Of a DNA stretch of 64,000 nt, positions 60 to 63,840 are shown piece by piece. Within the stretch, counting starts at the first letter, position 1. Each line of letters opens with the position of its first letter. The notes under the pieces are model-generated. The model saw only the letters and a program-made list of their open reading frames with translations. It had not been told where the DNA came from and searched no databases. The DNA comes from Amaurobius ferox (taxonomy: Eukaryota > Arthropoda > Arachnida > Araneae > Amaurobiidae), in the NCBI GenBank assembly GCA_951213105.1, contig OX578139.1:68941754-69005753 (forward strand), read 5' to 3'. The position numbers and the translations under genes are program-made.

Positions 60-470
60 CAATTTTTTCTCAAATTTTTACTCAAAAATGTTTAGAAACA
101 TTAATATAAAACAGCATGCAACACAATAAGGATGTTAGTGAGAAACCCGAAGTAGTAACACATTTGAAATACTTTCAAACTGTTGTTGAAAAGACGAAAA
201 TTTTCAGAAAGTTTTGAATAAAATAGCATGTAATACAATAATAAAAGTATCAGTGAGAAACTCAAAACAGTATCACATTTGAAGTCAAACTGCTACTCCA
301 AAGGCAAAAATTCTCAGAACGCTTTATATAAAACATATACTACATTGGCAATTTATTCAGCGAGAAACATAAAGCAGTAATACGTGTTATATGGGCTCAA
401 ATTACTGCTTAAAAAATTCAAAAATGCACAGGAAGCTTTGTATAAAACAGCATGACCGCAGCAAAAATAT
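60..470. repeat. Degenerate tandem repeat, ~110-bp unit
   Basis: Three to four diverged units each carry an 'ATAAAACAGCATG'-like stretch followed by 'GTGAGAAAC' (near 138, 253 and 360) and a CACATTTGAA stretch. Unit spacing is about 107-115 bp. No open frame or known motif is seen. Confidence 0.6.
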
Positions 471-775
471 TCCAAAAAATGTATATATTTTATCTAGAAG
501 ACGGAATATTGCCAAAATAGTTAGCTCCTCGTAATCCCAAACATCACTGAAGCAATTTGGACCAAATTTAGGTGATATGTTGCATGTATTGTCAACATGT
601 GAACATGATAATAATAATAAAAATAATAATAACCAAATAATTCAAAAAATGTATATAGTTTAACTATAAAACGAAATTTTTGCAATATCAGTGAATCTTT
701 TTAATCTCAAAAACCATTGAAGTGATTTAGAGCAATTTTGGATTATATACTGTTAATAATATAAACACCTGGATT
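466..775. repeat. Two diverged ~170-bp direct repeats
   Basis: The segment starting near 476 (AAAAAATGTATATA) recurs near 644 with similar following sequence (a 'TAATCCCAAACATCACTGAAGC'-type stretch in altered form). A short TCTG/TCTA microsatellite lies at about 775-800. Confidence 0.5.
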
Positions 776-786
776 TATCTGTCTGT

Positions 787-1370
787 TTATCTATCTATCT
801 GTAGGTGCTTGGCGAAATTTTAGTGTCGAAATTGGCGGAATATAGCCAACGTAGGGTCTCTTAATGATGCCAAATTGACGAAAATGTTGCCAAACTGATA
901 AAAATGTGGCCAAATTGTTAAAAAATGTAACTAAATTGGTAAAAATGAAGACTAATTGATGAAAATTCAGTATCTTGGAAAAAATATTCGAATCTACTAT
1001 AAGAATAACCTTTTTTTCCCGTCTGTAACGCTTGACGAAATTCTAGCGACGAATTTTGGTGACATATCGCCAACTTAACAAGTCCTTTTAAATGCGGCTA
1101 AATTGACTCCAAATTGATAAACTTGACGTTAAATCAATGAAAATGACGACTAATTGATGAAAATTCAATATCTTGGAAATAACACAGCAAACGACTATAT
1201 GAATAACCGAGTTCTCCACCCGTCCGTAATGCTTGGCGAAAAATTTGGCGGATGTCAAAAACGTGGTAACTTTTTTTAATACACTGCCAGATTGACGAAA
1301 ATGTCGCCAAATTGATAAAAATGTCAGCAAATTGATAAGAAAATAACGCTAAATGGGAAGCAGTGCTTTG
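787..1370 (-). repeat. Family A internal module, three tandem relics
   Basis: Three units of ~215 bp each run 'GTAAYGCTTGGCGA ... CGCCAAATTGATAAAAATG ... GACTAATTGATGAAAATTC ... ATCTTGGAAA'. This is the internal module of family A (compare 39300-39480). No A termini are present, so only the interior survives. The same three-fold amplification is seen inside the copy at 19400-20944. Confidence 0.7.
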
Positions 1371-1390
1371 CAAACTTTTAATTCCATCAT

Positions 1391-2500
1391 ATGACGGGCG
1401 TACCTTCTAGTGTGCATTATTTTGATGCGATTGCAGAAAAGAAATTTTTAAAAATGTATATAATTTGGCTCAGAGTTCGAATGCTTGCTTGCTTAGCATG
1501 GGGAGTTTCGAGTTTACCCCGATCTTTTAGTTTACAAGAGATATCCTGCCCATTGGCTTGTGGTCAGACAGACAAGATGCGCAGATCTCGGGAGATATAA
1601 TTCACTCGTATTCATGGATGTTCCAAATATATAAATGCATCAACATATGAAAGTCGGATTTATTACTCCAACACAAAACTTTACCTTTGCATATTACAAT
1701 AAAAGTATAAAGTTCGGAAACATTTATTAGAACTGTTTTAATTGCACATAAGAAATAAACTAATTAGTGGTCAATTTCCATTTATAAAAGGCAATTAATT
1801 AATTAAAAGCACAAAATTATTTTATTAGATTGCATACCAAAATAAAATATTAATATGAAAGAATAATATAAAATAATAAAACAATAATGTTTACGGTATA
1901 GAATCGTGTTTTATAAACTAATTACCTGATCTTTATTTACACATTGAACTCTAAAAACTTATATCTAAGTGTCACATTCTTCAACTTCTTACAGACCAAA
2001 AATTTGATATATATCTAATAAGGCGAAACAAGAGATTTTAACTCTGCTGTCAATTTGTGGTTACCAACGCAATCTAAAAATAGAGCAAAACTTTCGAACT
2101 TTTTTTCACTGACCATAAAAAAATATTCTTTTAGAATCTCAAGATAAACGTCATTGCTACATTTTTTTTTAGCAGAACAATCGAATTTATTTTAATATAT
2201 TGTTCTAAGAATTGAATTTAACTTTTATGTATGCTTAACATTCCGAAAAAAGTAATAGTTTGGAAATTTAATCCAAAAAATGTTTATCAGATGCGCGCTA
2301 TATATCATTAAAAAGCTCAAAATGTCCTACATTTGAAAATAATAATTTCAATATTAGTATATAATTAGAGAAAAACATAAAACTGCGTAATGAAATGACT
2401 TATATTAAATTTATATCTGCTTATAAGCTGTCTACAGCAATCAAAAATTGCTTTGTCAAAGCAATTATGTTACATTGTTTTACAGAAACTAGTGGGCTCC
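1391..2500. other. Unassigned AT-rich sequence
   Basis: I see no convincing gene, terminal repeat or tandem structure. The short open frame at 1391-1600 begins inside repeat sequence and looks random. Confidence 0.5.
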
Positions 2501-3165
2501 TTCCACTGCTCCACCAGCGAGCGTTAGCGAGTAGAAGGCGAAGCGAATCACGGGTGTTGCATAGCGAGCAAGGGATGAAACGTCAGCGAGTACAGGACAC
2601 GTAGGAGGTCGTGGAACCAGCCAGTTTGAAATAGCTCGCGAAGCGAGTTCCAGGGCTGGTGAATGTCAGTTAATAAATGACAGTCCCCAACATGCGTATT
2701 ACGCCTGCTTAGCAGATGGCACTAAAACGTTTGCAAGGGAACGTTAGCGAGTCGAAGAAGAATCCTTCCGACTTGCGAAGCGAGTTACAGGGCTTGGCGA
2801 GCATACTGAGCAGGGGACGGACCCCAACTGGCATATTACGCTTGCTCTAACAAGTGTATTACGTCTGCGTAACAAGTGGCACTAAACTGCTCTCGAATGG
2901 AGCTTAACGATCCTTTGCGAGTCGGAGGAGAAGCCTCCTGACATGCGAAGCGAGTTACGAGGGTTGGCGAAAAAGGCAAATAGGGGGTTCCCAACGGACA
3001 CATTACGCCTGCTCCAACGGGCGTATTACGCCTACGTAACAGATGGCACTAAAATGCTCCTGAAGCGAGCTCAGCGAGCGTTAGCGAGTTGGAGACAATG
3101 CGAGTTACGGAGGTTGTGAGGTTGGCGAGCGTAGCGATCAGGGGGCGGAGCCCCCTCGTAGATCA
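2500..3165. repeat. GC-rich tandem array, ~165-bp unit
   Basis: About four units are strikingly richer in G and C than the flanks. Each contains GCGAGCGTTAGCGAG or GCGAAGCGAGTT words, a TATTACGCCTGC stretch and GGCACTAAA (at 2717, 2877 and 3045). Units end in a G-run/C-run hairpin. The last is intact, AGGGGGC-GGA-GCCCCCT at 3140-3156; earlier ones are degraded (for example AGGGGACGGACCCC near 2812). Flanks are ordinary AT-rich DNA. No protein is evident. It could be an independently acquired element or a locally amplified structured repeat. Confidence 0.65.
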
Positions 3166-3649
3166 AAATTTCATAAAATTTTGTAAATATGTCACTTGTG
3201 TGTTACCCTGGTGGTGATTATACTTTGGAAGAAAAGAACCTGCCTTTTTTGCGAAATGGCCCGACAGATTCGTATGTATTTCTCAAAAGTTGGTAGATAA
3301 ATCCCTTATGAGCCTTGGTGCTAATTACATTTTGGTACGAGTTAGAACAAAAAAATCTGTTTTTTTTGTTTGTTTTTTTGCAAAATATCCTGCAAAAATC
3401 ATTAAAATCTAAAATAAAAGATTATATATGCTCATATGTTTCAATTTAATGCTGGTTCTACGCAATTTTTAACGATGAATAGAATGAGACTAACAACATA
3501 CCGCTAGCTCTCATTGTTCTAGAGTTAATTTAATTTTTTACATTTTTTCCAACGTCGCATTTTTCTAGTCTCCAATGAAAACAGAAATTGAATTAAAATT
3601 GTAAATTCAGAGTAATTTCAACTAGAGCAGAAAAGAGCAAACAAATTTT
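3166..3649. other. Unassigned AT-rich sequence
   Basis: Nothing recognisable was found between the GC-rich array and the family A fragment that starts at 3650. Confidence 0.5.
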
Positions 3650-3685
3650 TGTCTGTAGAGAATGTCATGTGCTGCCCACATCAGA
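3650..3685 (-). repeat. Family A 5'-tip fragment
   Basis: The reverse complement begins TCTGATGTGGGCAGCACAT, the 5' hairpin of family A, followed by GACATTCTC in place of GACTTTCC. Nothing further of the element is detectable. Confidence 0.7.
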
Positions 3686-4189
3686 TTTTTTTTTATTCGG
3701 CAACAGCTGAATATATTTAAAAGCTTTGTGCGATTAAAATATATATTAATAATTATAGTATTTTGTATCAAATTAAATATTATTGAGATTCTCTGCATAT
3801 ATTAGAAATTATTTTAAGTTATGTTGTTTAATTAATAAGTTTAAAACAATTTGTGAAATTAAAAAAATGCGCTAATGTCATTCAATGTTTTAATGCAGTA
3901 CGCATGTATCTGTTGGTAATTTAAAAACCGTTAGTCGAAGAAACATTATAGAATTTCTAATTGAATCATTAAACAAGTAGAAATTGATAATTGAAAATAC
4001 ATTTTTGTATGATTCGAATGATTTTCACCCAACTTTGCGAAGAAAATTAATTTGCGTCCCCGAGGGCACTATATTTCCTATTTCTAAAAAACCTCATTTA
4101 ATATTAATATATTGATGATTAAAAATGTCATATACGTTGTTCCTAAAATTCACGGGTTCTGGACCCCACCAGCATTTTGATAAAATGTT

Positions 4190-4410
4190 TTTGTAGAGAA
4201 TGTGCCATACACATAAAATATAGAAAATTGTTTCTGTAGAGAATGTGCCATACTAAGGAAATGGAAAATATATTTTTGTAAAGAATGTGCCATACCAACG
4301 AAATAAAAAAAAATGTTTTGGAAAGAATGTGCCATCCCAACGAAGAGGAAAAAATATTTTTGCAAATAATGTGCCATATCAACGAAATAGAAAATGTATA
4401 ACTGTAAAGT
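4190..4410. repeat. Minisatellite, ~42-bp unit
   Basis: Five units carry AATGTGCCAT near 4199, 4242, 4284, 4326 and 4368. Because 42 is a multiple of three, the minus strand stays open and gives a repetitive 103-codon frame that should not be read as a protein. Confidence 0.8.
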
Positions 4411-4485
4411 ATGAGTAATCTAAAATTTGCTATCTTAAATAAGCAGTCTGACACTGATTTTTTTTCGTATTATTGTTTAGAATTA

Positions 4486-4580
4486 CACACTAATTTAAAT
4501 GTACTGCCGGCCATACACTTAATTGCCATTAACCCCTGGGTTGGCTGTATGGTCTGGGCCTTTCACACTAATTTAAATGT
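4486..4580 (+). mobile_element. Mini-retroposon E (copy E5) with 17-bp target duplication
   Basis: A 61-bp insertion (4503-4563) lies between perfect direct repeats CACACTAATTTAAATGT (4486-4502 and 4564-4580). The insert folds into a hairpin: GGCCATAC (4509-4516) pairs with GTATGGTC (4547-4554), 8 bp with one G-U. It then runs into TGGGCCTTT. This matches the 3' hairpin domain of the SINE family (GGCCGTCC...GGACGGTCTGGGT) in layout, with paired changes in the stem. The perfect flanking duplication shows a genuine insertion made by target-primed or staggered-cut integration. Confidence 0.75.
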
Positions 4581-5188
4581 TGTATAATATCGATCTGTAT
4601 ATATCGTGATAGCATAAAAAGTGGGTGTCGCTATTTAAATGAGCAATTAAATATGAAGACGACATATTATGTAAATTAAATGCACATTTATGTGCAGCAG
4701 ACATTATTCAGGGAATGATACTTCTACATACGACCCGAAGGGCCGCAATAACGATCAGTGTTAGGCTTTTCATTTGGCCTACAGTACGTTTTTAACACTT
4801 TCCAACATACACTGGCGGAAAATAAAATCCAAACACCAAGAAGAAATTAGTTTGGAGGAATGAAATTTAGCCAAAGCAATTGTGTAGGTAGCATACTTGT
4901 TTGATTAAAGTTTCAAGGTCACATGTTAAAGTATGCACGAGAAGAGCCATTTCAAATGTGAAATGTTGGTACATTAATAACCGCTGTAATCACCACGATT
5001 TTGAATGCGAGCATGCAAACGTACATGCATTGTGTCGTACAGGTGCCGTATGTCATTTTGTGGGATGGATTTCCATGCCTGTTGCACTTGGTCACACAAA
5101 TCAGCAACGATTAATGCTGGTTGTGGATGATTCTTCCAATAATGTCCCATACGTGTTCGATGGGAGAAAGATCTGGTGATCTCGCAGG

Positions 5189-5656
5189 TCAAGGCAACAT
5201 GTCGACACTCTGAAGAGCACGTTGGGTGACAGCGGGTTGAGCGTTGGGTGACAGCGGGTGACAGTTGGGGATAGCGGTATAAGGACGAGCGTTATACTGT
5301 TGGAAAACACCCTCTTGAATATTGCTCATGAATGGCAGCACAACCGGTTCAATCACCAGTCTGGTGTACAAATTTGCTGCCAAGGTGCTTGGGATAACGA
5401 CGAGAGTGCTCCCGCTGTCATAGGAAATGACACCCCAGACCATAACTCCTGGTGTAGGCCCAGAGTGTCTACCCCGCAGACAGCTTGGTTCCAAACGCTC
5501 ACCTGGCCTCATTCTTACTAACATACGACCATCACTGGCACCAAGACAGAAACGGCTCTCATCTGAAAATACAACAGATCTCCACTCTGCCCTCCAATGA
5601 GCTCTAGATTGATACCCCTGACTTCGCAGATGGCAGTGATTCGGAGTTAGTGGCAT
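5189..5656 (-). pseudogene. Tc1-type transposase, DDE catalytic region (broken)
   Basis: A 155-codon open stretch contains 'VVFSDESRFCLG', the region of the first catalytic aspartate. A GVMVWGVISY block follows, as is typical of Tc1 transposases, then 'VFQQYNARPYTA', which aligns with the usual FQQDNARPHTA. There Y replaces the second catalytic D, which alone would abolish activity. The C-terminus then runs into a short local repeat (GCGGGTTGAGCGTTGGGTGACA, about 5230-5262 on the plus strand) instead of the third acidic residue region. The N-terminal part lies upstream in another frame (5745-6011). The enzyme would cut and join transposon ends in the nucleus; this copy is a fossil. Confidence 0.85.
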
Positions 5657-5744
5657 GAACGCTGCAGGCCGTCTGGCTCGGAGCTGTCCCTCAAGTAATC
5701 GAATTCTTACAGTTCACTGTGTCACTCTGGGGCCAACAGAAGCA

Positions 5745-6011
5745 CTAATTGCTGCTGCAGATGCAGTACGACTCGCCACATGCGGCGGTCTTCCCTCCCA
5801 GTAGTGGTCCGTGTCCGGCCGGACCCCGGTCTTCTTCAGACAGAGCCTTCCTGTGACTACTGCTGCCAACAATCATGCACACTGGATACACCCTGGCAAG
5901 TCTTTCTGAAATATCGCGGAAAGAAAATCCACCTTCTCGTAGCCCTATTATACGGCCTCGTTCAAATTCACTAAGCAGCTGATACTGCCTTATTCGTCTC
6001 CTTAAAGGCAT
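5745..6011 (-). pseudogene. Tc1-type transposase N-terminal DNA-binding region (broken)
   Basis: The open stretch starts MPLRRRIRQYQLLSEFERGRIIGL and continues 'REGGFSFRDISERLAR', a helix-turn-helix pattern typical of Tc1 transposases. The M at 6011 is the likely native start because it lies a plausible distance inside the right terminal repeat. After about residue 50 the sequence is frame-shifted; an arginine-rich linker can be read in another frame before the catalytic part at 5656. It belongs to the element at 4810-6242. Confidence 0.75.
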
Positions 6012-6867
6012 TCTTGACTCAAACCTAGCTCACAACGGCCCAGTCTGGAAGATAAATAACGCTCACGAAGTTTACACAGATAATTTGAAGCAGACGTGAT
6101 TTGCGTGATCAGAGTGGCGCTACTAGCGCCACTCTTATTCCCCTAGCTCGAAATTTGAATAAGAGTCATCTTTCGTATGTGCAAACGAGCCTTCCAAATT
6201 TCGTTTATCTAGCACAACTCCTTCTTGGTGTTGGGAAAAGTGTATATAATATATAACTTATTTGGTCTGTCTGTCTGTCTGTTTGTCCCTTTCGCACGAT
6301 ACCTGCCATGAAAATGACTTTATAAAAATGAAATGTTAGTGTGTTGTTCAGACGGTCTGTCGGACATTAGGGAATGTAAATTAATAATACATACTACCCA
6401 ATTAGTTTTGAATTGAACCCGGGTGAAATACATTGAATTAAAGTGAAATACATTGAATCCTATGGGACCTAATTTTCAAAAATTTTTTAAACAAAGTTAA
6501 AATTCACAAATTCCCTTGAAATATTTAACAAATATTCAAATTATCTTATAAATTTTATAAAAAAATGTGAGTAAAATATTTTAGTAGTTATTTAAATAAA
6601 AATTAAAACAAAAATTACATCACTTCAAAATAAACCACTTCAAAATAAAATGACCCACATCAAAATAAAGTGACCCACTTAAAAATAAAATATACATCCA
6701 TCTTTTTTCCCAGTGTTAAAATCGTGATTTTAAACGTTCTTTTAAATTTATATTTAGTGTTACATCAGTCCTAAAACCGCTTTATTTTTGCGTATTTTCT
6801 GTGCACGGCGTACTCTCTTGAGTAAAGCGTAACTTTATACACTGATAAGCAAACCTACATAATATCA

Positions 6868-8140
6868 AACAAGAAAGATCAATCATGCTTAAAGCATTGA
6901 TTATGAAACACTTTCCAACTTCAATGCAATTTTATTTATACATGTCGAAAATGCAATACATTCCTCGGTAATATTTTAAAACTTATCACAATACTACATT
7001 AATTTATTATATTCGAAAACTTAAACCTGCATAGAAAAAAATGAACTTCATTCAAATGACGGCATTGAAATAAAAATTGCCTGGTTTAAACATCTCTAAA
7101 ATGTGATACATTCCTCGTTAATAATTTTAAAATTATCATAATACTACGATAATTTATTATATTTGATAATTTCATCGAAAACAACTGAAATTCATTCAAA
7201 TGACGTCATAGAAAAAATAACAGGCCTGGTTCTCTCTATAAAAGCAGCATTTCATTCATAAATAATTTCCCATTCATGTCATTCATCACAATACTATAAT
7301 AATTTATTTTATTTAAAAATTAAGGCCATGGAGCTACAAGTAATTAAACTCTATGCGTAAAACTTCATCAAAAAAAATTGTCCTTCTCTTTGTAAAATCA
7401 ATGAATATTTTATTTATATCAGCTACGCAGACTCCATGAACTAAATGATATTGTGTTAAAGAAATACAACACTTCTACTGCAACTCATTCTACATATTTT
7501 GCTGTTTACATTTTACATAGGGGAAAAATAGGCTTCGTTGTAGAAATACTCAAATTTAGATGAACATTTAAACTCAAATATATTGTAATTGCGTTGTTTC
7601 AGTATGTAGATGCACAGAATTTAAGCAAAAATAAAGTGGTTTTAGGACGGATACAACACTCAATATGAATTAAAAAGAGCTTTAAAAATCACGATTTTGA
7701 GACAAGATGGATGCCATATATTATTTTGAAGTGGGTCACGTGATCTTTTCATATCATGGTCACGTGATCGTTTCATATAAGAGGTGTTTTTATTATTTTA
7801 ATTTTTATTTAAAAAATCACTGAATGTATTTCGCTGAATTTTTTTTTATATATTTTATGGAACAATTTGAATATTACCTAAAATTTTCGAAGCAATTTGT
7901 GAATTTTAAATCCGCTTAAAAAATGTTTGAAAAATTAAGTCCCATAGGGTTCAATGTATTTCATTTTTCAACCCGGGTTCAATCCAAAACTAATTGGGTG
8001 ATATTATTCATTTATATTCCCGTAGATCCTACAGACGGTCTGAACAACATACTGAAATTTCATTTTGATAAATTGAATTTCATTTTGACAGACAGAATGA
8101 ACGAAGTCATAAACACTTTTCAACTTTGTTGTAAAGTGTT
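6868..8140 (+). mobile_element. Family B repeat (B1), near full length
   Basis: Starts AACAAGAAAGATCAATC, followed by an imperfect palindrome (TCAAT-C-ATGCT..AGCAT-TGA) and AAACACTTTCCAACTT. Ends with the hairpin AACACTTTTCAACTT...GTAAAGTGTT, so the 5' motif equals one arm of the 3' hairpin. Internally there are three ~155-bp tandem modules (TGCGATACATTCC...AATTTATTATATTTGAAAAC type), a TGACGTCA palindrome (7201-7208) and two TCACGTGA boxes (7736-7743 and 7760-7767). No open frame, so it is non-autonomous. The same family recurs at 21160-22440 and 58742-60082. Confidence 0.8.
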
Positions 8141-11014: not shown

Positions 11015-11750
11015 GACAAATCCTACTGGCGCCTGGAGATCTAACTCATACTCTAAATCTCGTAATATTTTTTAAATATCTTACAAGAATGATATTCTCG
11101 GCCGGGAAAACAGATACTCTAAACTGCAAGATGAGCCCCCGGTCAGGGAGTAACAATGGTGTTCATATCACCTTTACTCTAAACAAACTGCACCTAACTC
11201 AAAGGACTTCAAGAGCTAATGAAAAGGTTAAAATTAAATTTGGCCCTGGACGGGTTACCCGATTGGATTGAAATTCTAATGAATTTAAATGCACCACAAA
11301 AGACAACGACGCGTCAAATTTCGTGTTGCTACATACAATGGAATTTGGCTTGTCAGGGCTTCAAATAATTGAAATACGACAAATACGTATGTATACTTTA
11401 TGTGAAGTGAATATGGTTGTAAAAATAATATCCAATAAAACAGAAGGAATTCTGAAAAATGTGAAATAAATGGCAACAGTTTTAAAAACTTCAAATGCAT
11501 TTTAGAAAACTAAAGTTTCCAAACAACACTATTTTTCTAGCTGACGACTGCTAGAGTTTTTTTCTGAACCACTTTAAGTTCAGGAATTTCTTAACAAAAA
11601 TAATATTATGAAAGTTAACTTTTGTATTTTAAAAGTTTGTTTGGAAACGAGTTATATTATCAGAAAAGTGAGTTCCTTTTAAAACAAACTAAACTATCGC
11701 AGTTCTAAACCTAAAATACACTATTGATCAAATAATTATGAATGCTTTTT
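11015..11750. other. Unassigned sequence
   Basis: Nothing recognisable apart from ordinary AT-rich DNA. Confidence 0.45.
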
Positions 11751-25080: not shown

Positions 25081-25495
25081 TCATTGAATACATGTTGTTG
25101 TTGTTGAGACCCAGACCGTCCGACCTACCAGAAAGGTGTAAGGTAACTGTATGGACGGCCGGGAAGTGCCACCCAATTTAGACCGGAACCCAGTGGGGGA
25201 GGCATCCACAGGGACCGTACCCTCCTTCCCCTACCACCAACCCCTCGGAAGGACTTACGGACCCACATGTTTAACGTGATCGTACTCCGCATGAACACGG
25301 CGGCATTTGTGGTAGCGTGCAAATCTAGCGCGCAAACCACGGGGGTACCGCACCCGAGATGGCCAACAGCACGCGGTGTTCCGAGGTGGTCACCCACCAA
25401 GTACTAACCGCGCCCGATGCTGCTTGACTTCGGTGATCTAACGAGAACCGGTGTTTTCAGCACGGTACGGCCGTTGGCCCTCATTGAATACATGT
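25081..25495 (-). mobile_element. 5S-headed SINE, full length, with 15-bp target duplication
   Basis: The element (25096-25480, minus) is flanked by perfect TCATTGAATACATGT repeats (25081-25095 and 25481-25495). In order on the minus strand: a full-length 5S rRNA-derived head (25478-25361), then a tRNA-like stretch with A-box flavour (GCGGTACCCCCGTGGTTTGCG) that lacks the B-box segment. Next comes the shared body (CCGTGTTCATGCGGAGTACG...), then a terminal hairpin GGCCGTCC...GGACGGTC, TGGGTCTC and an (AAC)n tail. Transcription would be by RNA polymerase III from the 5S-type internal promoter and mobilisation by a LINE. The perfect duplication implies a fairly recent insertion. Confidence 0.9.
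25361..25478 (-). promoter_or_regulatory. 5S rRNA-derived SINE head (type 1 Pol III promoter)
   Basis: 118 nt from GCCAACGGCC to GCTGTTGGCC match 5S rRNA along the whole length. Landmarks are CACCGGTTCTCGT, ATCACCGAAGTCAAGCAGC, CGGGCGCGGTTAGTACTTGG and GGAACACCGCGTG. Complementary termini are retained. As part of a SINE it is a promoter module and not a functional rRNA gene. Confidence 0.9.
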
Positions 25496-30209: not shown

Positions 30210-30621
30210 TGGGAAAAGGTTGGTTGTTGTTGAGACCTAGACCGTCCGACCTACCAGAAAGGTGTAAGGTAACTGCTTGGACGGCCGGGAAGTGCCACCC
30301 AATTTAGACCGGAACCCAGTGAGGGAGCCATCCACAGGGACCGTACCCTCCCTCCCCTACCACCAACCTCTCGGAAATACTTACGGACCCGCATGTTTAA
30401 TGTGATCGTACTCCGCATGAACACGGCGGCAGTTGTGGCAGCGTGCAAATCCAGCGCGCAAACCATCGGGATACCTCGCCCGAAATGTGCCAACAGCACG
30501 CGGTGTTCCCAGGTGGTCACCCCTCCAAGTACTAATCGCGCCCGATGCTGCTTGACTTCGGTGATCTAACGAGAACCGGTGTTTTCAGCACGGTAGGGCC
30601 GTTGGCTGGGAAAAGGTTGGT
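30210..30621 (-). mobile_element. 5S-headed SINE, second copy, with 15-bp target duplication
   Basis: TGGGAAAAGGTTGGT flanks the element at 30210-30224 and 30607-30621. The organisation is that of the 25.1 kb copy: 5S head (30606-30489), a tRNA relic without the B-box segment, body, terminal hairpin and AAC tail. Sharing the same internal deletion marks these two as one subfamily, since two independent fusions are unlikely to produce it. Confidence 0.9.
30489..30606 (-). promoter_or_regulatory. 5S rRNA-derived SINE head, second copy
   Basis: 118 nt from GCCAACGGCC to CGTGCTGTTGGC, colinear with 5S rRNA and with the head at 25361-25478. The element starts exactly at 5S nucleotide 1 next to the target duplication, as expected for a polymerase III transcript start. 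Confidence 0.9.
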
Positions 30622-30688
30622 CGAAAACCCAGGCCGTCCGACTCATCTGAAGATATAGAGCAGCAAAAATGGGCGGGAAAAGGTTGGT
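30608..30688 (-). mobile_element. Mini-retroposon E (copy E1)
   Basis: About 53 bp (30622-30674) lie between GGGAAAAGGTTGGT repeats (30608-30621 and 30675-30688). That target is the same one used by the neighbouring 5S-headed SINE. The minus strand ends GGACGGCCTGGGTTTTCG. The opposite arm of the stem is degraded (CCGCCC). Confidence 0.65.
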
Positions 30689-31327
30689 GTGAAACATCAC
30701 GCTTTTCACATAATTCGAATCAGAAAAGTTGATGTTAAACATCACTCTGTGCACATACTTCGAATGGGAAAAGGTTGATGTTTGTTATGATGTGTGACGA
30801 AGGTACAGAGTACCTAGGGAAAGGTTTCGATATGTTTAGAATTTAGTTTTTATTATTTATTTATTTATTTATTTTAAAAACTCTATAAAGTTTCGATAAA
30901 TTAATAGAGGCAGTTTATTTCGTTCGAATCGAATCGCAAATGTCCAAGTTACCGACGGTGAAACGTTTGAATGTAACGTGTGCTCACTCCCCGAGCGAGT
31001 GTGCCGTCGGAGCAACTGGTTAAGTGCATAGTAGCATACAGCTCAGTTGTCGATACATAGATGTCACCAGATTCAAAATGTAGTTTATTTACACTTTTCT
31101 AGTGTCGCATATATATTGAAATGTTTGACTGCTCATTGGCCTGCTACCTTCACAGCCTTGAGTCCGCAACCATCATGTGACATGAAGGAACACCATAAAT
31201 CGTTGTTCGAATATTGAATCAAGTCTGTTACATTCTTGTCGCTTTGGTATTTATTAACAAAAAACTACCACCTTTTAATCCTGTATCACACCTACTAAAA
31301 TTATTTTATAATACATTTTAAGTGATA

Positions 31328-31385
31328 TCTAGCCGTCCAAACGTAACTTACACCTTTGGGTAAGTCAGATGGTCTGGGTAAGAAA
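31328..31385 (+). repeat. E-like / SINE 3'-end fragment (E6)
   Basis: GCCGTCCAAACGTAACTTACACC followed by GATGGTCTGGGTAAG is the SINE 3' hairpin domain alone, plus-oriented. The stem GCCGTC/GATGGT can form with G-U pairs. No target duplication was found. Confidence 0.55.
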
Positions 31386-31678: not shown

Positions 31679-31979
31679 AATGGCTTTCTGTCTTCTTCTT
31701 CTTTAACACAGACTGTCCAACTTACCCGAAGGTGTAATGTATGTGTTTGGATGGCCGGGAAGCGCCACTCAATTCAGTCCCGAACCCAGTGGGGGGCCGT
31801 ATCCACAGGGACCGTATTCTCCCTCCCTTATCTGCAACTTCTCGGAAGGACTTACAGATCCACTTATTTAGGGCGTCCGTACTCCGCGTAAACACAGGGA
31901 CAGTTCGCAGATCTCAAGTCATCCGAGTGCAATCCCTGATCGCTAATATCCGGGCTGTCCCCAGTAATGACTTTCTGTC
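31679..31979 (-). mobile_element. Old tRNA-headed SINE
   Basis: AATGRCTTTCTGTC at 31679-31692 and 31966-31979 flank a diverged copy (31693-31965). The body and 3' hairpin domain are recognisable (GGCCGGGAAGCGCCACTC, AGTGGGGGGCCGTATCC). The tRNA head near 31910-31960 has a damaged B box. It drives a spurious 101-codon plus-strand frame. Confidence 0.7.
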
Positions 31980-33175
31980 AGCTATTCCTAACAATATGAC
32001 ATCACTTCTGTTTAATACTTACAATTCGTCCCAATCACTTTCATGATTTACTCTGTTCCCAGAGCCCTAAGAAGTTTCACATCAAAACAATTAAACAACG
32101 CCATTGCGCCTTAACTTAGATACAATGAGGCATACGACTTTTTCGAGGATATATTTCATCTTCTCCGCCAGGTACAACCTAGAGGATAATTAAAACTCGC
32201 TCCTCCAGAATTGACAAAATACAAATAAAATGATATCGTTGGGAGGTAACGGAAATGGAAAGATATATTTAACGTAATTTAGAATAATGAATAATTCAAT
32301 ATTATAGGAACGGAAAATGCATTTTTTTTTATGAAATACATTTTCTGAAATGCATTTTCTCCATACTTGCATTGCATTCAAGTATGGAAAACACAATCTA
32401 TAAATATTTCAATATATTTTTAGCAAAGATTACAAATTTAGTAAAATGTCTTTATTTAAAAAACATGATTGATGTCGTACACGAAAATTTACAAGAGTGA
32501 CAAAGCGCTTCCAAGAGTGCTTGGCTTGAATTATTTATATACTTATTTTGTAAATGTAAATTATTGTTGGCTTGAATTATTTATGTATTTATTTGTAACT
32601 AGTAGTATACCCGTTCTTCGTACGGAATATATAATATAAAAAAAACTTTAAATTCATGTGCAAATTCCTATAATATTCTAAAATACATTATTATTCAAAG
32701 CATTCTATTAAAATATTTAAATCAGTGTTCCTAAAACGAACTTTAAGAATATCTTTTCTGGCTATACAAATATTATTTTCACAGGACGATATGAAGAATG
32801 AAAAATCATGGTCCAACTTGTAAACAAATTTACAAAATATGACATTAAATCAATATATGTCAAAATAAAAGCTATGAAATTGTATAGGAAGATATATACC
32901 CGTACTACTTATATTCTCGAATATTAGAAGATATATCCGAGTATTAGTAGAAGAATAGTCGTCTACAATATATGAGTTTCAAAAATATTTGCCAAATATA
33001 TGCCAGATATTTATATACCAATTATTTGCCAAAATATTTGCCAGACAATTTAATAAATTTAAAATATCATTAATCCCCGTTTATCTTTCTACCTGAAGGC
33101 TGTAATCGATTCCAATACATTCCAAAATGAAAGCGCTAAAATAAAATACACCTACTACTTATATTCTCGTAGATT

Positions 33176-33265
33176 AGAAGATGTACCCGTCGAAAACCCA
33201 GACCATCAGACTCGTCCAAGGACTAAGAGCAGCAAGATGGATGGTCGGGAAGAAGATGTACCCGT
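33176..33265 (-). mobile_element. Mini-retroposon E (copy E2) with 15-bp target duplication
   Basis: 60 bp (33191-33250) lie between AGAAGATGTACCCGT repeats (33176-33190 and 33251-33265). Neighbouring family C units supply the uninterrupted site (AGATATACCCGTGTATTAG). Stem arms GACCATC (33201-33207) and GATGGTC (33240-33246) are perfectly complementary and differ from the SINE stem at paired positions. Confidence 0.8.
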
Positions 33266-55287: not shown

Positions 55288-55608
55288 AGCTAAAGAATAT
55301 GTTGTTGTAGAGACCCAGGCCGTCCGACCTACCAGAAAGGTCTAAGGAAAGGTAAGGTGTTTGGACAGCCGGGAAGAGTCATCCAATTTAGACCTAAACC
55401 CAGTGGGAGAGGCAACCAGAGGGACCCTGCCCTCCTTCCCCTACCACCAATCTCTTGAAAGGACTTATGGTCCCCCATGTTTAACGTGATCGTATTCCGC
55501 GTGAACACGGCGGCTGTTTTGGCCGGGGCGGGAATCGAACCTGGGTCTACCGAGTGCAATTCCCGAGCGTTAACCACTGGGCTACCGCGCCCTTGAGCTA
55601 AAGAATAT
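55288..55608 (-). mobile_element. tRNA-headed SINE in gag
   Basis: Target duplication AGCTAAAGAATAT at 55288-55300 and 55596-55608. The minus strand starts GGGCGCGGTAGCCCAGTGG (A box) with B box GGTTCGATTCCCG nearby, then the body and 3' hairpin (stem GGCTGTCC/GGACGGCC, one U-G), ending in a degenerate AAC tail. Confidence 0.85.
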
Positions 55609-55694
55609 ATGAAAAACTTCAAAAAGTTATTTCAAAAACCAGTCAAAAGAGAAAAAGCATAAGTTAGCCGTAATAGTAGATACACAAAACTGCG

Positions 55695-56007
55695 AGCTAA
55701 AGAATATGTTGTTGTTGAGACCCAGACCGTCCGACCTACCAGACAGGTGTAAGGTAACTGTTTGGACGGCCGGGAAGAGCCACCCAATTTAGGCCAGAAC
55801 CCAGTGAGGAAGATATCCATAGGGACCGTACCCTCCTTTCCCTACCACCAACCACTCGGAAGGACTTACGGACCCACATGTTTAACGCGATCGTACTCCG
55901 CGTGAACACGGCGGCAGTTTTTGCAGCGGAGGGAATCGAACCCGGGCCTACCGAGAGCAATCCCGCTAGCTAACCACTTGGATACCGCGCTCTCCGCTAA
56001 AGAATAT
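55695..56007 (-). mobile_element. tRNA-headed SINE in duplicated gag segment
   Basis: The element is about 55708-55995, with GCTAAAGAATAT on both sides (starting 55696 and 55996). B box GGTTCGATTCCC is intact; the A-box region reads GGTATCCAAGTGGTTAGC. It has inserted at the same host word as its neighbours. A 34-bp 3' SINE fragment follows at 56008-56041. Confidence 0.8.
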
Positions 56008-56041
56008 GTTGTTGTTGTTGAGACTCAGACCGTCCGACCAT

Positions 56042-56125
56042 CTAAAGTATATGTGAAAGACCCAGGCCACCCGACGCACCCTAAGGTATGAGCAGCTGGT
56101 TGAGTGGCCGGAGCTAAAGAATTTG
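56042..56125 (-). mobile_element. Mini-retroposon E (copy E4)
   Basis: 60 bp (56054-56113) lie between CTAAAGTATATG (56042-56053) and CTAAAGAATTTG (56114-56125), an imperfect 12-bp duplication. Stem arms GGCCACCC (56065-56072) and GAGTGGCC (56102-56109) pair on the minus-strand RNA with one U-G. Confidence 0.6.
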
Positions 56126-56489
56126 ATATTGTTGTTGTTGAGATCCAGACCGTCCGATTTACCAGAAAGGTGTCGAAAGCCCAGGCCACCCGACTCATCC
56201 GAGGACATAGAGTAACAAAGTGGATGGCCGGAAACAGAAAGGTGTAAGGTAACTGTTTGGACGGCCGGGAAGTGCCACCCATTTAGACCGGAACCCAGTG
56301 GGGGAGGCATCCACAGGGACCGTACCTTCCTTCCCCTACTGCCAACCTCTCGGAAGGACTTACGGACCCACATGTTTAACGTGATCGTACTCCGCGTGAA
56401 CACGGCGGCAGTTTTGCCAGTGGCAGGAATCGAACCCGGGAAAACCGAGTATAATTCCTGCGCGCTAACCACTGGATTTGCGCGCCCTG
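56126..56489 (-). mobile_element. tRNA-headed SINE with a nested E insertion
   Basis: Full-length SINE body with B box GGTTCGATTCCTG and an AAC tail. It is split inside its 3' hairpin domain by copy E3. Host word AGCTAAAGAAT lies on both sides (56112 and 56488). Two further plus-strand SINE-derived words in the same stretch come from E3. Confidence 0.8.
56163..56245 (-). mobile_element. Mini-retroposon E (copy E3) nested in a SINE
   Basis: 61 bp (56174-56234) lie between CAGAAAGGTGT repeats (56163-56173 and 56235-56245). The SINE consensus in other copies reads straight through this word once, giving an exact empty site. On the minus strand the stem GGCCATCC...GGGTGGCC forms with one U-G. 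Confidence 0.8.
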
Positions 56490-56713
56490 AGCTAAAGAAT
56501 ATGTGAAAAACTTCAGAAAGTTATTTCAAAAACCAGCCAGAAGTGAAAAAGCGTAAATTAGCCGTGATAGTAGATACACAAAATTGCGAAGATAACCGGT
56601 GGTGGAATATTACAGCAGAAGAGAAGTGCAAAACATGGGCGGAATTTAAAGAAAAAATAAAAATTAACTTCCGTGAGGGATTTTATAATGAGGAAAGCCG
56701 AACTGATGAATAT

Positions 56714-56800
56714 ATTAGAATTGTAAACCCAGACCGAGGGAGCTCACCCTAGAGTATAGAGCTCATGGATCCCCGATCTGAGATAGATTAGAATTAGAAA
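56714..56800 (-). mobile_element. Probable mini-retroposon E (copy E7)
   Basis: 59 bp (56728-56786) lie between ATTAGAATTGTAAA and ATTAGAATTAGAAA (12 of 14 identical). The minus strand ends CGGTCTGGG and can pair CAGATCG with CGGTCTG, plus an inner GAGCTC/GAGCTC stem. It is more diverged than the other copies. Confidence 0.45.
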
Positions 56801-57420
56801 TACGTGGGGACAGCATGGTTGAGCTAGTCTATGAGAGACTGGGAACACCACTCCAATATTTTTTTTCTTTGGAAGAGTGCCGAGATCTTTTGATGAGTTT
56901 TATGAAGTAGCAAGTAAGTACGAAGTAAGTACGGAGTAAGTACGGAGGAAACTAAGCAGAGGTAATTCAAATCAAGGATTTAGAAACCAGCAAAGACCAC
57001 AAGCAGGTTCAAATAGCAGATATGGACTATAAAGAATGTTGGGATCACAGGACACCCAAAGAAATGTATTGCAAGAAAGAGGTGATCATAGAAGGAATTT
57101 TAGAGGATGGCAATTTAAAAAGATAGGAAGGCCATCTAACCCATACACGTAGTGAAAATGAAAGATAGTAAGCTTCAGCATGATTAAAAAAAGGTGGGAA
57201 AAGTACGTGTTGAGAATTTAAGATTTTCTCAACCAGATAATTCAGAAGAAAAGTGAGTGAAAGAAGGGTCAATAAACGACTATTTCAATTGAAAGAAATT
57301 AGCAAAAAAACGTGCTGAAAAAAGCTGCAATCGCACGAGGAATGGAAGTAGACGCAAATATTTGAAACAGAGGAAATAATATTAAAAACTGAAGTTAAAA
57401 ATCCGGTTAAGGTAGAAAAG

Positions 57421-57909
57421 GTGAAAGTCAAGTTAAAAGGTGATTTAGAGGTTCAACAGCCAGTTGAAAAGAAGTGGGATCAAGCATCCAAGTTGAATAG
57501 AAGTGCAGAAGAGGTCCGACAAGGGAAAACGGAAAAGAAATCTGGAAGTTTAAAAAAGACTGGCGACTCGAAATATCGCGCCACCTGGCCAAAGTGGATG
57601 GACAAAATGTAGTCAGCAGCGACTAAGAGAATGGACAGAATGGAGACCGAGAGAAAGGACAGACAGAAGGATGCCTAACCAGGACCAATCCCAAACAGAA
57701 CTTCGATGGAGGTCAGAATGGGTACGTCAACGATTACAAGAGCGACCAGGGAAGGACAGGCCCCCAGGAAGAAGAAAAAAGTGAACCCAGGAGCCAAGAC
57801 ACCGACAAAAATCCAGAAAAGACGATTTAGAGACCCAGACTGGCCGGCATGGACGCTGACAAGAGAAAAATATATAAGTGAAGTACAAATGGTTAAAACT
57901 AAATTTTAA
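57421..57909 (+). pseudogene. Basic C-terminal gag-like remnants
   Basis: Two short open frames in different registers are lysine- and arginine-rich (for example 'RKKKKVNPGAKTPTKIQKRR'). They end at TAA 57907-57909. They follow the zinc-knuckle remnant and lie before the family B insertion. Low-complexity basic composition fits a nucleocapsid-like tail, but the identity is unproven. Confidence 0.35.
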
Positions 57910-58741
57910 ATGTAGCTTGAGTTTGAAAAGTGCATGAAATGTAGTTTTTAAAGCATTGTATTGCTATGATTTGAAATAATTTAATTAAATTGTATTGAAA
58001 TGTTTGACATAAGTTTTAAAAGTTCAAATTGCATTGAAATGTTTAACGTAAGTTTTAGAATTAAAATTGTATTTTAAGGTGATTTGAAGAAGTTTTAGAT
58101 ATTAAAAAACAGTATTAATATATGTTGAATAAGTTAGAAAGTAAAGTTATATTGATGTGTTTTAAGTAGTATTTAGAAGTTAAGGATTTGAAATTCAAAC
58201 GAATGTAGCAATATTGTAATTGATGTGATGTCTTAAAGTAATTGAAATTGAATTGGATGTAAAAAATTTTTAAAGTAGTTGAAACTGTATAATAATGTAG
58301 TTCGTTTCTACAGTATGAAAGAAGAATGACTGCAGTTTTGGTTTAGATCGGATAAACGTTTGCTTGATCAAGAAGATGGAGAAACATTGAGGTTAGAACG
58401 CGAATCTAAGGGTTTTTTGTTAATGGTTTAAATTGAAAAATGTTAAGAATGGGAAGTTCATACATTACGAAAAAATCTTGATCAAAGGGGATCGGATTAG
58501 GTGAGTGCATAATTTCATGATTGAAATCACCTGAGGCAGAAAAAAAGAGATTTATGTTTTTAAAGTGAAATAATCATAAAAATAGATGCATGTAATTTGA
58601 TTTTGAAGTAGATGATGTCAAAGAATATTGGAAATAAAAACAATTCTAGGTTCTCAATATGTATTTTATAATAGAAAATGTTTAAAATATTTATAAAAGT
58701 GTGGAAAAATTTATTTCTAGTTGTGGATTACGCGAAAGAGT

Positions 58742-60082
58742 AACAAGAAAGATCAATCATGCTTAAAGCATTGATTATGAAACACTTTCCAACTTCAATG
58801 CAATTTTATTTAAATAAGTCTAAAATGCAATACATTCCTCGGTAATATTTTGAAACTTATCACAATACTGCATTAATTTATTATATTTGAAAACTTAAAC
58901 CTTCATCGAAAAAAATGAACTTCATTCAAATGACGGCATTGAAATATAAATTGCCTGGTTTAAACATCTCTAAAATGTTATACATTCCTCGGTAATAGTT
59001 TTAGAATTATCATAATACTACGATAACTTATTATATTTGAAAACTTCATCGAAAACAACTGAAATTAATTCAAATAGAATTAATTCAATTAGAATTGAAT
59101 TAATTCTGAAATTAATTCAATAGAAAAAATAACACGCCTGGATCTCTCTATAAAAACAAGATTTCCTTCATAACTTTCTCCCATTCATTTCATTCATCAC
59201 AATACTATAATAATTTATTTTATTTAAACATTTTGTTTAAGACCATGGAGCTACAAAAAATTAAACTCTATGCTTGAAACTTCATCGAAAAAATCGTCCT
59301 TCTCTTTATGAAATCAATTAATATTTCATTCATATCAGCCATGCAGACTCCATGGACTAAATTATTTTGTGTTAAAAAAATACAGGAATTCTAATACAAC
59401 TCATTCTATATATTTTGCTGTGTACATTTTACATAGGTGAAAAATAGGCTTAGTGGTAGAAATAAGCAAATTTAGATGAGCATTTAAACTCAAATATATT
59501 GTCATTGCGTTATTTCAGTATGTTGATGCACAGAATTTAAGTAAAAATAAAGTAGTTTTAGGACGGATACAACACTCAATATGAATTAAAAAGAACTTAA
59601 AAAAATCACGATTTTGAAACAAGATAGATGCCATATATCATTTTGAAGTGGGTCATGTGATCGTTTCATATCATGGTCACGTGATCGTTTCATATAAGAG
59701 GTGTAATTATTATTTTAATTTTTATTTAAAAAACTACTGAATATATTTCGCTGAATTTTTTTTTATATATTTTATGGAACAATTTGAATATTACCTAAAA
59801 TTTTCGAAGCAATTTGTGAACTTTAAATCCGCTTAAAAAATGTTTGAAAAATTAGGTCCCATAGGGCTCAGTGTATTTCATTTTTTCGACCCGGGTTCAA
59901 TCCAAAACTAATTGGGTGATATTATTCATTTATATTCTCATAGGTTCTACAGACCGTCTGAACAACATACTAAAATTTCATTTTGATTAAGTCATTTTTA
60001 CGGCAGTTATCGTGCTAACGGACAGACAGACAGACAGAATGAACAAAGTCATAAACACTTTTCAACTTAGTTGTAAAGTGTT
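58742..60082 (+). mobile_element. Family B repeat (B3), full length, inside the LTR element
   Basis: AACAAGAAAGATCAATCATGC start; TCACGTGA at 59677-59684; (GACA)n at 60020-60037; terminal hairpin AACACTTTTCAACTTAGTTGTAAAGTGTT at 60054-60082. A local ATTCAATTAGAATTGAATTAATTC rearrangement (about 59080-59120) replaces the TGACGTCA box of B1 and B2. Confidence 0.8.
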
Positions 60083-60569
60083 AAAAAGAATAAAATTGTC
60101 AATTGATGCTATTTGTATAAAAAATTGTTATTTATGTGCAAATTGTTGTTTTATCTTTCGCGATCATTTTTAGAAGATCGTCTAATGTACTGTTCTTTAC
60201 CCAGTGTCAAGTTAAAAACGCTAATTTTGTATGGTATTGAGACAGGTTTTTTCCCCTAAGATGATTTCAAAGTTTAAGAAATGTTCGTATTGGATCTTTA
60301 AGCAACCACTAAAGGGTTGATTGCTCAGAGTGGTTATGGAGGAAGTGATGCCCATCTTAGATCTAATACTCTGCTCTTTAAAACGAACCTGGTGATAATT
60401 GGGGTCCAGCAGTCAAATCTCACTCCGATCGGGAGTAAGCCGGACGGAGTCGAATATGTAGGCATTTGTCTTTTGACTATTAAGGAATGGGGCAATTTGA
60501 GGTAATTGTGCACGATCGATTCCATTTAAAGGGATCTCGCGGGCAAAATTTTGTGTTGTTTGGGACATT

Positions 60570-61200
60570 TGTGAAGTCTAAATAACCTTTCGATTATTAT
60601 TTCCCTCAGTTTGCATTATAATTTATGTGTCTTTACGCTAACTATTCTAACTGGTTTGGTTGTTAGACCATTCACCGATTTAATCAGCATTTTCTGCGTT
60701 CCTAATGTGAAATAGGAATAAGTTTCGAATCGTGAGAGATTCGGGAATAGCAAAGAGTAAGGTTGAAGGAAGTTTGGAGAAAATGTAGGATTCTAGTAGA
60801 AAGGCAGAAGGATAGGATTGAGTAGGAAGGGTGAATGATTCTTGTAAGAATTTGACGTGGGTGAGTGTGAGTGCTGCATATGACAGGATATAGATGTGGA
60901 TGAGTGCGGAATTTGGCCGGCAGCCTAGTGGAAGGAAATCCATTTATATACCACTATGACTAGAAATAGTCTAGTATCCGGGGTTTGTCCGCAATACGGG
61001 ACGAGGTAAATAATAACAGTGGTAAGCTTAAAAGCTTTAGAATCGTCTCCATTTCAGAGTTATCACCAGGTAAAGGAATTGTAGTATATTGTATATTTGT
61101 AAATTATTTTGTCCGTGTGCAATAATAAGTACGGTATATGTTATTAGTTTCTTTAAACAGCCAGCTGCTGTAATTTTTGCGACATTTACAATAAAATTTG
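60570..61200 (+). repeat. Right LTR
   Basis: Starts TGTGAAGTCTAAATAACC and is colinear with the left LTR. It ends somewhere after AACAGCCAGCTGCTG near 61170; ACAATAAAATTTGATT near 61190 could be a polyadenylation region. Confidence 0.7.
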
Positions 61201-61656
61201 ATTTAAAACAGTGCCGTCCTATGTTATTACCATTGAACCGAAAGGTCTGAATATCTAGTGCATTAATTAAGAATTAGGTCACATTTTACAAATCGAAGAT
61301 CCATCGTCGAAAAAGTACTAATGTTTGTCAAACATAAATTAAAAGTTTTGTGCTATAAGCATATAACTCTCCCAACAGACTGAAAATCATATTTCCATTC
61401 TTTCTTTCCTTCGTATGTTAATTTATATAGAATTTCACGAATAGCATCAAATTAATAAGCTGCATCAAATTTATAGTTATAAAACTATTTCCATTTGGCG
61501 TCATTTCCATTTTTTTATTTGTCAACTTGACATATTTAGAAATAGCGCGAAGTATCTCAAATTAAATAATAATAAATATTTCAATAGCGGCTTAATTTAT
61601 CGAAATGGAAGTAGTTTAATTAACTTTGTCGTAAAAAATTACGTGTAAAACAAGTA

Positions 61657-61676
61657 TTTATTAAATATAATCAAAC

Positions 61677-61749
<73 letters not shown>

Positions 61750-61757
61750 CTATGTAT

Positions 61758-61789
<32 letters not shown>

Positions 61790-61808
61790 ATATATACATA
61801 TATATATA

Positions 61809-61871
<63 letters not shown>

Positions 61872-62031
61872 CTTTTATTTGTGTTTTTATTGATGTTTAA
61901 GGGCAATTTCGAATGTATTCTATTTTGCCAATTGTGTCAAATTCTACTTAACATCAGGGTAACGCATACATGACTTGACAGACACATTAAATAAAATATA
62001 TTTGAATAGATTTTATTAAATATAATCAAAC

Positions 62032-62106
<75 letters not shown>

Positions 62107-62114
62107 CTATGTAT

Positions 62115-63117: not shown

Positions 63118-63426
63118 GAACTCTAATATCCTTCTTTGACCCAGACCGTACGACCTACCCGAAAGTGTAAGGTATTTGTCTAGACAGCCGGGAAGAGCCA
63201 CCCAATTTAGACCGGAACCCAGTAGGTGCGGCATCCACAAGGACCATACCTCCTTCCCAACAACCAACCTTTCGGACGTACATACGGACCCGCATATTTA
63301 ACGTGCCCGTACTCCGCGTGAACACGGGTACAGTTTGGGCAGAACCGGGAATTAAATTAAATTGGGTCGTTCGAGTGTAATCCGCGAGCTAATAACTGGG
63401 CTGTCCCACACCTGGAACTCTAATAT
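63118..63426 (-). mobile_element. Diverged tRNA-headed SINE
   Basis: GAACTCTAATAT at 63118-63129 and 63415-63426 flank the element (63130-63414). The body is recognisable but a short ATTAAATTAAATT insertion lies where the B box should be, and the 3' stem has mismatches. It is an older copy. Confidence 0.75.
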
Positions 63427-63523: not shown

Positions 63524-63840
63524 TCAAATATAGAAAGTTGTTGTTGTTGAAACCCAGACCGTCCGACCTACCAGAAAGGTGCAAGATAACTTCTTGGACG
63601 GTCGGGAAGTGCCACCCAATTTAGATCGGAACCCAGTGGGGGTGGCATCCACAGGGACCGTACCCTCCTTCCCCTACCACCAACCTCTCGGAAGGACTTT
63701 CGGACCCACATGTTCAACGTGATCGTACTCCGCATGAACACGGCGGCAGTTTTGGCAGTGGCTGGAATCGAACCCGGGCCTACCGAATGCAACTCCAGCG
63801 CACTAACCAATGGGCTACCGCGCCCTCAAATATAGAAAGT
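63524..63840 (-). mobile_element. tRNA-headed SINE, full length, with 15-bp target duplication
   Basis: Perfect TCAAATATAGAAAGT duplications (63524-63538 and 63826-63840) flank a 287-bp element. The minus strand has GGGCGCGGTAGCCCATTGG (A box 63817-63807), GGTTCGATTCC (B box 63774-63764), the body, then the 3' hairpin with a perfect 8-bp stem GACCGTCC/GGACGGTC (63603-63596 and 63564-63557), TGGGTTTC and an (AAC)n tail. Pol III would transcribe it; a LINE would mobilise it. This is the best reference copy of the tRNA form here. Confidence 0.9.

Follow-up and report, generated by a model that had tools for sequence, protein, structure and literature searches.

The window, the whole 64-kb stretch of DNA that was analysed, carries six ultra-short inserts that a sequence-only reading had picked out, and all six were found where that reading had placed them. 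They are retroposed, uniform in length (~61 nt) and flanked by target-site duplications (TSDs). In the sense direction each runs as a hairpin, CTGGG and a T-rich tail; this corrects the order first described, a hairpin followed by TGGGT. The inserts and related features of the window are as follows.

4486..4502, strand not assigned: one 17-bp TSD copy; the second copy lies at 4564-4580
4503..4564, plus strand: hairpin-only insert of LINE-A type; core with tail at 4507-4567 (CCGGCC...CTTTCACA), the last four bases being common to the TSD
11095..11154, plus strand: weak, possibly old hairpin copy, a marginal covariance-model match (20.4 bits)
25104..25478, minus strand: 5S-headed SINE with the same 3' hairpin, a (CAA)n tail and a 15-bp TSD
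30230..30606, minus strand: second 5S-headed SINE with the same 3' hairpin
30608..30621, minus strand: 14-bp target ACCAACCTTTTCCC, with more copies at 30675-30688 and 30211-30224
30622..30679, minus strand: hairpin-only insert with a 3-nt gap and the tail TTTTCG/AC
31326..31380, plus strand: old hairpin-only copy, a clear covariance-model match with no TSD seen
31705..31990, minus strand: SINE whose hairpin is followed by a (GAA)n tail; the script detected no TSD, and the 5' end is approximate
33191..33251, minus strand: hairpin-only insert with a 15-bp TSD, from the repeat scan and the covariance model
55308..55597, minus strand: SINE whose head looks tRNA-like by eye, also ending in this hairpin; 5' end approximate
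55715..55996, minus strand: SINE whose head looks tRNA-like by eye, also with this 3' hairpin; 5' end approximate
56055..56114, minus strand: hairpin-only insert with an imperfect TSD (CAAATTCTTTAG / CATATACTTTAG)
56174..56234, minus strand: hairpin-only insert within the loop of a SINE 3' hairpin, 11-bp TSD
56722..56786, minus strand: divergent hairpin-only insert with an imperfect TSD
63138..63415, minus strand: SINE with the hairpin, a different tail and a 12-bp TSD, 5' end approximate
63547..63826, minus strand: SINE with a tRNA-like head (by eye), the same hairpin and a 15-bp TSD, 5' end approximate

Exact flanking repeats were found at four of the six inserts, with lengths of 17 bp (4486 and 4564), 14 bp (30608 and 30675), 15 bp (33176 and 33251) and 11 bp (56163 and 56235). 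The two imperfect TSDs, read by eye, match at 10 of 12 positions (56054) and 12 of 14 positions (56728). The window was scanned for exact direct repeats with a start distance of 60-85, which gave 14 repeats of at least 11 nt; apart from these four, all are either tandem repeats or lack the hairpin. Twenty first-order Markov simulations yielded a mean of 0.75 repeats of at least 11 nt per window and none of at least 13 nt.

Five of the six inserts lie on the minus strand, and in five the tail is followed by AC, which is common to the element tail and the target. The 30622 insert is real and longer than the 53 nt first read: covariance models place it at 30622-30679, and its length was underread because its 5' end has TCCC in common with the TSD. 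Of the uninterrupted paralogous targets that had been described for three inserts, those of the 56174 insert were read at 25129 and 30255, in SINE hairpin loops. The target of the 30622 insert adjoins 45/46-bp tandem repeats with similar unbroken units. Rfam and ARAGORN found no tRNA or 5S part in the short inserts (ARAGORN also misses the tRNA-like SINE heads). Elsewhere in the window, a Tc1/mariner-like transposase fragment was recognised by eye at 5189-5713 (minus strand).

Covariance models were built first from the six inserts and then from 14 hairpins, and were run on the window. We found 14 clear hairpins, namely seven short inserts (the six and 31326-31380) and seven SINE 3' ends. The same hairpin thus ends seven SINEs, and also an eighth that two short inserts interrupt, a relation absent from the sequence-only reading. 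TSDs were detected by script for six of the seven SINEs. Rfam identified complete 5S rRNA heads in two of them (25361-25478 and 30488-30606), and most of the others have a tRNA-like head by eye, where ARAGORN reports none. In length, the seven short copies stand against seven SINEs of ~280-390 nt with none intermediate; besides these, the window holds a ~22-nt remnant at 56018-56040 and the interrupted eighth SINE. We also observed by eye that one SINE body occurs with two heads, either a complete 5S rRNA plus a tRNA-like part (25104-25478, 30230-30606) or the tRNA-like part alone (55308-63826).

From base to tip, the hairpin comprises an outer and a middle helix, a ~3-nt bulge and the apical helix. 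Among the 14 window hairpins, 93.9% of cells pair, both sides change in 9 of 18 pairs, and 23 cells are two-sided; none of 500 shuffles reached any of the five observed values. Slid controls were 25-49% paired, a comparison in which they are at a disadvantage because the structure was derived from the same 14 sequences. A second set comprised 44 distinct hairpins hand-chosen from 100 of the 100,643 pattern matches in the genome, and only pairs that the search pattern leaves free were counted. Here 90.4% of cells pair, and two-sided cells number 101 versus 32.9 in shuffles (0/500). One pair, for example, is C-G in 21 hairpins, A-U in 7, G-C in 6 and U-A in 5. For these 44 hairpins, pairs with two-sided change and further pair types were not clearly above shuffles (369/500 and 33/500 reach them, respectively). 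The predicted fold of the 61-nt form has a 5' end flush with the stem and a single-stranded 3' tail of 10 nt.

At E up to 1, Rfam gave nine matches in the window: the two 5S genes, and seven weak ones of microRNA- or snoRNA-like type, each under its gathering score. A hammerhead or HDV-like ribozyme, prompted by GATGAGTC, was rejected, as no ribozyme family is among these nine matches. In 75 viral-contig stretches with a 16-letter motif, 9 places matched the model at E up to 1, the strongest with 20.5 bits (E 0.007) over just 37 nt, and these were taken as chance because the stretches were picked for that motif. A 24-mer pattern had no matches in viral contigs, nor did one pattern scan of prokaryote contigs.

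The assembly of 3,564,777,782 bp (3.56 Gb) contains 100,643 occurrences of the strict pattern CCGGCCN{34,50}GGYCTGGG, with 80 for the reversed control. This pattern undercounts because most window hairpins escape it (it recovers 5 of 14, and 3 of the 7 short ones). From the first 43 listed places, all within the first 2 Mb of one contig, three were removed for visible duplication, and the remaining 40 were inspected with sequence fetched to 130 nt upstream. Nine were SINE ends. Thirteen, as a raw count, were hairpin-only with a TSD by a script that allowed up to one mismatch, and L219 and L224 were hairpin-only by eye. The other 16 were joined to long non-SINE upstream sequence, as seen over those 130 nt. 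Naive scaling from these 40 places gives an estimate, not a count, of ~38,000 hairpin-only copies among the strict-pattern matches, and by estimate the 61-nt repeat class has 10^4 to 10^5 copies. CCGGCCATACAYYWWAYTGCC itself has 1102 occurrences in the assembly, clusters included. Dense match clusters were considered as LINE arrays and rejected as such: in the one piece read of each, the first proved to be a 177-bp satellite in which a hairpin insert has been amplified, and the second showed repeated LINE 3' ends. In the satellite (L261, C2:200193300-200196000), occupied monomers reading CCAC-GT-hairpin-ACTTG stand beside unoccupied CCACACTTG, and the amplified insertion has no TSD.

Copies identical to the 4503 insert are dispersed in the genome. 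The 29-base 3' end of its family has 358 exact occurrences in the assembly (control, 0), and the first 90 of 100 listed places formed a length sample from one young subfamily, picked by 3' sequence only. By script, 73 of the 90 were hairpin-only with an exact TSD of at least 11 nt, 6 had a TSD at another distance, 9 had none, and 2 were LINE copies; with L130, one of the 9 and recognised by eye, three of the 90 run into a LINE 3' UTR. With mispaired flanks, 3 of 1781 pass as hairpin-only with a TSD. Of the 73 copies, 52 are 60-62 nt long (60 nt in 8, 61 in 32, 62 in 12), 6 are 66 nt, and the other 15 span 55-72 nt. Their TSDs measure 11-22 nt, and 14-17 nt in 60 copies. A broad spread grading into longer SINEs, the outcome that would have made these inserts ordinary truncated copies, was not found in this 90-copy sample.

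The 5' end falls 0-1 nt from the stem base in most copies, and ~5 nt upstream of it in a minority; most 66-nt copies begin with TTCTC, the LINE sequence directly upstream of the hairpin, and short extra bases are present at some 5' junctions. The script rejected the TSDs of L181 and L209 (only two kinds of letter; one mismatch), and a looser earlier script had found some TSD in 80 of 90. The six copies with a TSD at another distance include lengths of 37 nt (L150) and 41 nt (L196); the others show a run of T at the junction (L142), part of a second hairpin (L162), a palindromic form (L147) or an unclear structure (L145).

Some unusual arrangements were seen in this sample. L162 has a complete hairpin preceded by a second copy of roughly its first 16 nt. 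L135 and L147 (2 of 90, by eye) are palindromic insertions, with the hairpin 3' end inverted along with inverted flanks. Four more loci form two inverted pairs, L132/L133 and L143/L144 (contigs C1 and C2), each counted as two places among the 90. The palindromes look as if they came from fold-back or double target-primed reverse transcription (TPRT).

The inserts are not a stand-alone, autonomous micro-family: they are the terminal hairpin of LINEs with almost nothing upstream, and long LINE copies carry the same variants letter for letter. Four of the first matches to the 4503 3' end, L085-L088, have a long upstream sequence in common, and L085-L087 are long LINE copies with the exact 4503 hairpin variant. 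This LINE, LINE-A, carries the tail of the 4503 insert, and its ORF2 is broken in the copies read (8.9-kb regions around these four matches). A second LINE-A hairpin variant has 78 exact copies of the hairpin 5' part; 4 of these have TTTCTC upstream, and the 4 agree with one another over ~190 nt of upstream sequence resembling LINE-A and in their 61-nt end.

A related element, LINE-B, is ~7.4 kb long (L124, sense strand, ~398-7805) and lies within a LINE-A 3' UTR, between two ACAACTTCATTTC copies, with 13-bp TSDs; its boundaries were read by eye in the single copy L124. ORF1 is open (623 aa) with no Pfam match. ORF2 is open as well (1189 aa) and contains Exo_endo_phos_2, RVT_1 and RNase_H domains (EN-RT-RNase H); by sequence, its PDB relatives begin with L1 ORF2 and another reverse transcriptase, followed by the TRAS1 and R1Bm endonucleases. 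With both ORFs open and TSDs on its flanks, this copy is apparently young. Its 3' end is a SINE-type hairpin with (CAA)n, and a second, nested hairpin of another type lies near that end. The open ORF2 in L124 was considered as the parent of 4503-type inserts and rejected, since it belongs to the LINE-B copy inserted in the LINE-A 3' UTR. The coding regions of LINE-A and LINE-B have ~67% nucleotide identity. The structured hairpin is thus common to the ends of two related LINEs, further long upstream sequences, and SINEs.

Across 76 insertions whose exact TSD is at least 12 nt long, the target logo is approximately TTTA/CACAC, with A, C and A in 75, 75 and 76 of 76; the choice of copies with a TSD adjoining CACA may sharpen it. 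In the 4503 family the tail has the same letters, CACA, as the target, and window SINE TSDs mostly begin with AC too. The 14-bp site at 30.2-30.7 kb was used by both the short insert (30622) and a 5S-headed SINE, and ATATTCTTTAG variants recur between successive elements at 55.3-56.5 kb. This recurrence suggests that one site was used repeatedly, though the 55.3-56.5 kb region is also partly duplicated. Along 55290-56502 (minus strand) lie a SINE, a short insert, the ~22-nt remnant with (CAA)n and a SINE, with near-copies of one 11-nt target between them. In the long copies L085-L088, L130 and L257-L260, CACA is often followed by a similar C/T-rich stretch (CTCCTTA, CTTA), unlike in hairpin-only copies; long LINE-A copies may be more selective in their target, or their RNA may end further on.

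What the data establish is the product, hairpin and tail copied into DNA and inserted at CACA between TSDs, as expected of TPRT. The reason why copying ends at the stem base does not follow from them, and for the formation of the 5' end we infer a route. The hairpin-only copies are probably retroposons made by TPRT of a putative ~61-nt RNA, consisting of the LINE 3' recognition hairpin and a short single-stranded tail. The LINE ORF2 protein would bind the hairpin, nick at CACA, prime on the tail and copy the RNA to its 5' end. That end would usually lie at the stem base, the rest of the LINE RNA having been trimmed off, and a candidate trimmer is a 5'-to-3' exonuclease that would halt at the folded, protein-bound hairpin. 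Such trimming would account for the flush end with its few-nt scatter and would suit any parent RNA. In zebrafish, a LINE ORF2 protein is reported to bind its own 3' stem-loop, whose deletion abolishes retrotransposition (PMC4176376), and for an R2 system template degradation from the 5' end has been suggested to limit insertion (PMC11331408). The hairpin-only copies seem to have no promoter and are presumably dead on arrival. Hairpin-only products are not dominant in every family, because 16 of the 40 sampled places join long non-SINE sequence.

In 16 of 20 long loci, the 128 nt before the hairpin contain AATAAA (mean in shuffles, 0.34), and in the other 4 that interval lacks it; the 20 are not independent cases because many are related. 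The signal lies 59-119 nt upstream in 12 loci and just 10 nt upstream in the remaining 4, which belong to one family. A poly(A) signal so placed in most long copies would supply downstream fragments. An extended version holds that the poly(A) site splits the LINE transcript into a translatable mRNA lacking the hairpin and a piece that is trimmed to the hairpin and serves as the main integration substrate, so that the 61-nt class outnumbers its parent and competes with it. We regard this version as unlikely. The poly(A)-site route is weakened by the 4 loci that lack AATAAA in that interval and by the family with AATAAA 10 nt before the hairpin, where cleavage would cut into the hairpin itself. 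SINE-type hairpin-only copies also exist (L230 and L249, whose TSDs differ at one position); should these derive from Pol III SINE RNA, cleavage at a poly(A) site cannot be the sole route.

Against trimming stands a serious rival, which we judge somewhat improbable: TPRT on full-length LINE or SINE RNA, in which an anchored ORF2 protein lets go prematurely after the hairpin and so gives a fixed length. A reverse transcriptase letting go at the stem base leaves identical junctions. Long copies bear the same hairpins and tails, and the shorter TSD-flanked copies of 37 nt (L150) and 41 nt (L196) indicate that incomplete copying happens. However, folding should hinder an enzyme entering from the 3' side, not one that has already copied the 5' strand of the stem, and by our own reading the single case of L162 fits copying that reached the 5' end of one hairpin RNA and then jumped onto another.

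A true micro-SINE, in which a distinct 61-nt RNA gene driven by an external promoter of its own feeds the copies and LINE RNA processing plays no part, would suit the uniform lengths and the many dispersed copies identical in sequence, yet we consider it quite unlikely. Long LINE copies carry hairpin variants with the same letters (4 of 78; L085-L087), the 5-nt extensions (TTCTC) equal the LINE sequence directly upstream, and hairpin-only copies occur in many subfamilies, including the SINE type, so that many source genes would be needed. Ordinary random 5' truncation of LINEs and SINEs, seen through a biased pick of short examples, is very improbable. Such truncation is described as the usual fate of LINEs (PMC2861651), but the 90-copy sample contradicts it, with its cluster at 60-62 nt and no LINE-derived lengths between ~70 nt and the three long copies, as does the gap between short copies and SINEs in the window. 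A hairpin DNA transposon (MITE or foldback-like), suggested by an insert that is largely one inverted repeat, is already contradicted and has next to no chance of being right: the TSDs vary from 11 to 22 nt where terminal inverted repeats with a fixed-length TSD define that class, the stem is interrupted and covaries as RNA, the 3' tail agrees with the target, and the same hairpin ends LINEs and SINEs.

Among known systems, the closest likeness is to stringent-type LINE/SINE pairs such as eel UnaL2 and zebrafish ZfL2-1 and ZfL2-2, which are described as likewise combining a LINE and a SINE with a common 3' hairpin and a short tail (PMC4176376). Recognition of the hairpin by the ORF2 protein is reported there and is putative here. 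A conserved structured 3' stem-loop common to LINE and SINE was found in our case too, as the LINE-B and SINE hairpins are alike and the structure covaries. Unlike in those pairs, the hairpin also occurs alone, in great numbers and at a fixed size, has three covarying helices, and belongs to a LINE whose ORF2 has an RNase H domain.

Like 5'-truncated, dead-on-arrival LINE copies, the inserts have a LINE-identical 3' end with little or no foreign sequence, are flanked by TSDs and show no promoter. They differ in that a single 5' end, at the stem base, is preferred: among the 90 of 358 copies inspected from one subfamily, truncation points were not scattered over the element. With SINEs, including the 5S- and tRNA-headed ones of the window, they share a non-autonomous nature, the 3' hairpin common to a partner LINE (LINE-A and LINE-B ends), TSDs of variable length (11-22 nt in 73 of 90) and a tendency of TSDs to begin with AC. 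Unlike SINEs, they lack a Pol III-derived head or body, and at ~61 nt against ~280-390 nt their length leaves no room beyond the hairpin for a promoter head of tRNA, 5S or 7SL type.

R1-clade LINEs (R1Bm, TRAS) resemble the present LINEs in an AC-rich target, TSDs of ~15 nt and an endonuclease with TRAS1 and R1Bm matches in PDB, behind L1 ORF2, a likeness that rests on the EN-RVT_1-RNase_H architecture and these endonuclease matches. In contrast to them, the insertions are dispersed and not confined to one repeat. Waldo and Mino are R1-clade LINEs found at AC-rich repeats. No description of fixed-length hairpin-only LINE copies was found among the titles and abstract openings listed from open-access papers.

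These results suggest that the LINE tail alone is enough for copying and insertion, and the tail is probably the part that the copying enzyme recognises. Natural insertions would thus point to a minimal TPRT template, maybe one ~50-nt structured hairpin with a short target-matching tail. Ordinary repeat annotation is expected to miss the 61-nt class because of its small size. The genome of this spider holds very many natural variants of one RNA recognition element, with both LINE and SINE users, and these provide a rich covariation set for ORF2-RNA recognition. The question of what sets the 5' end of the short copies bears on the fate of LINE transcripts.
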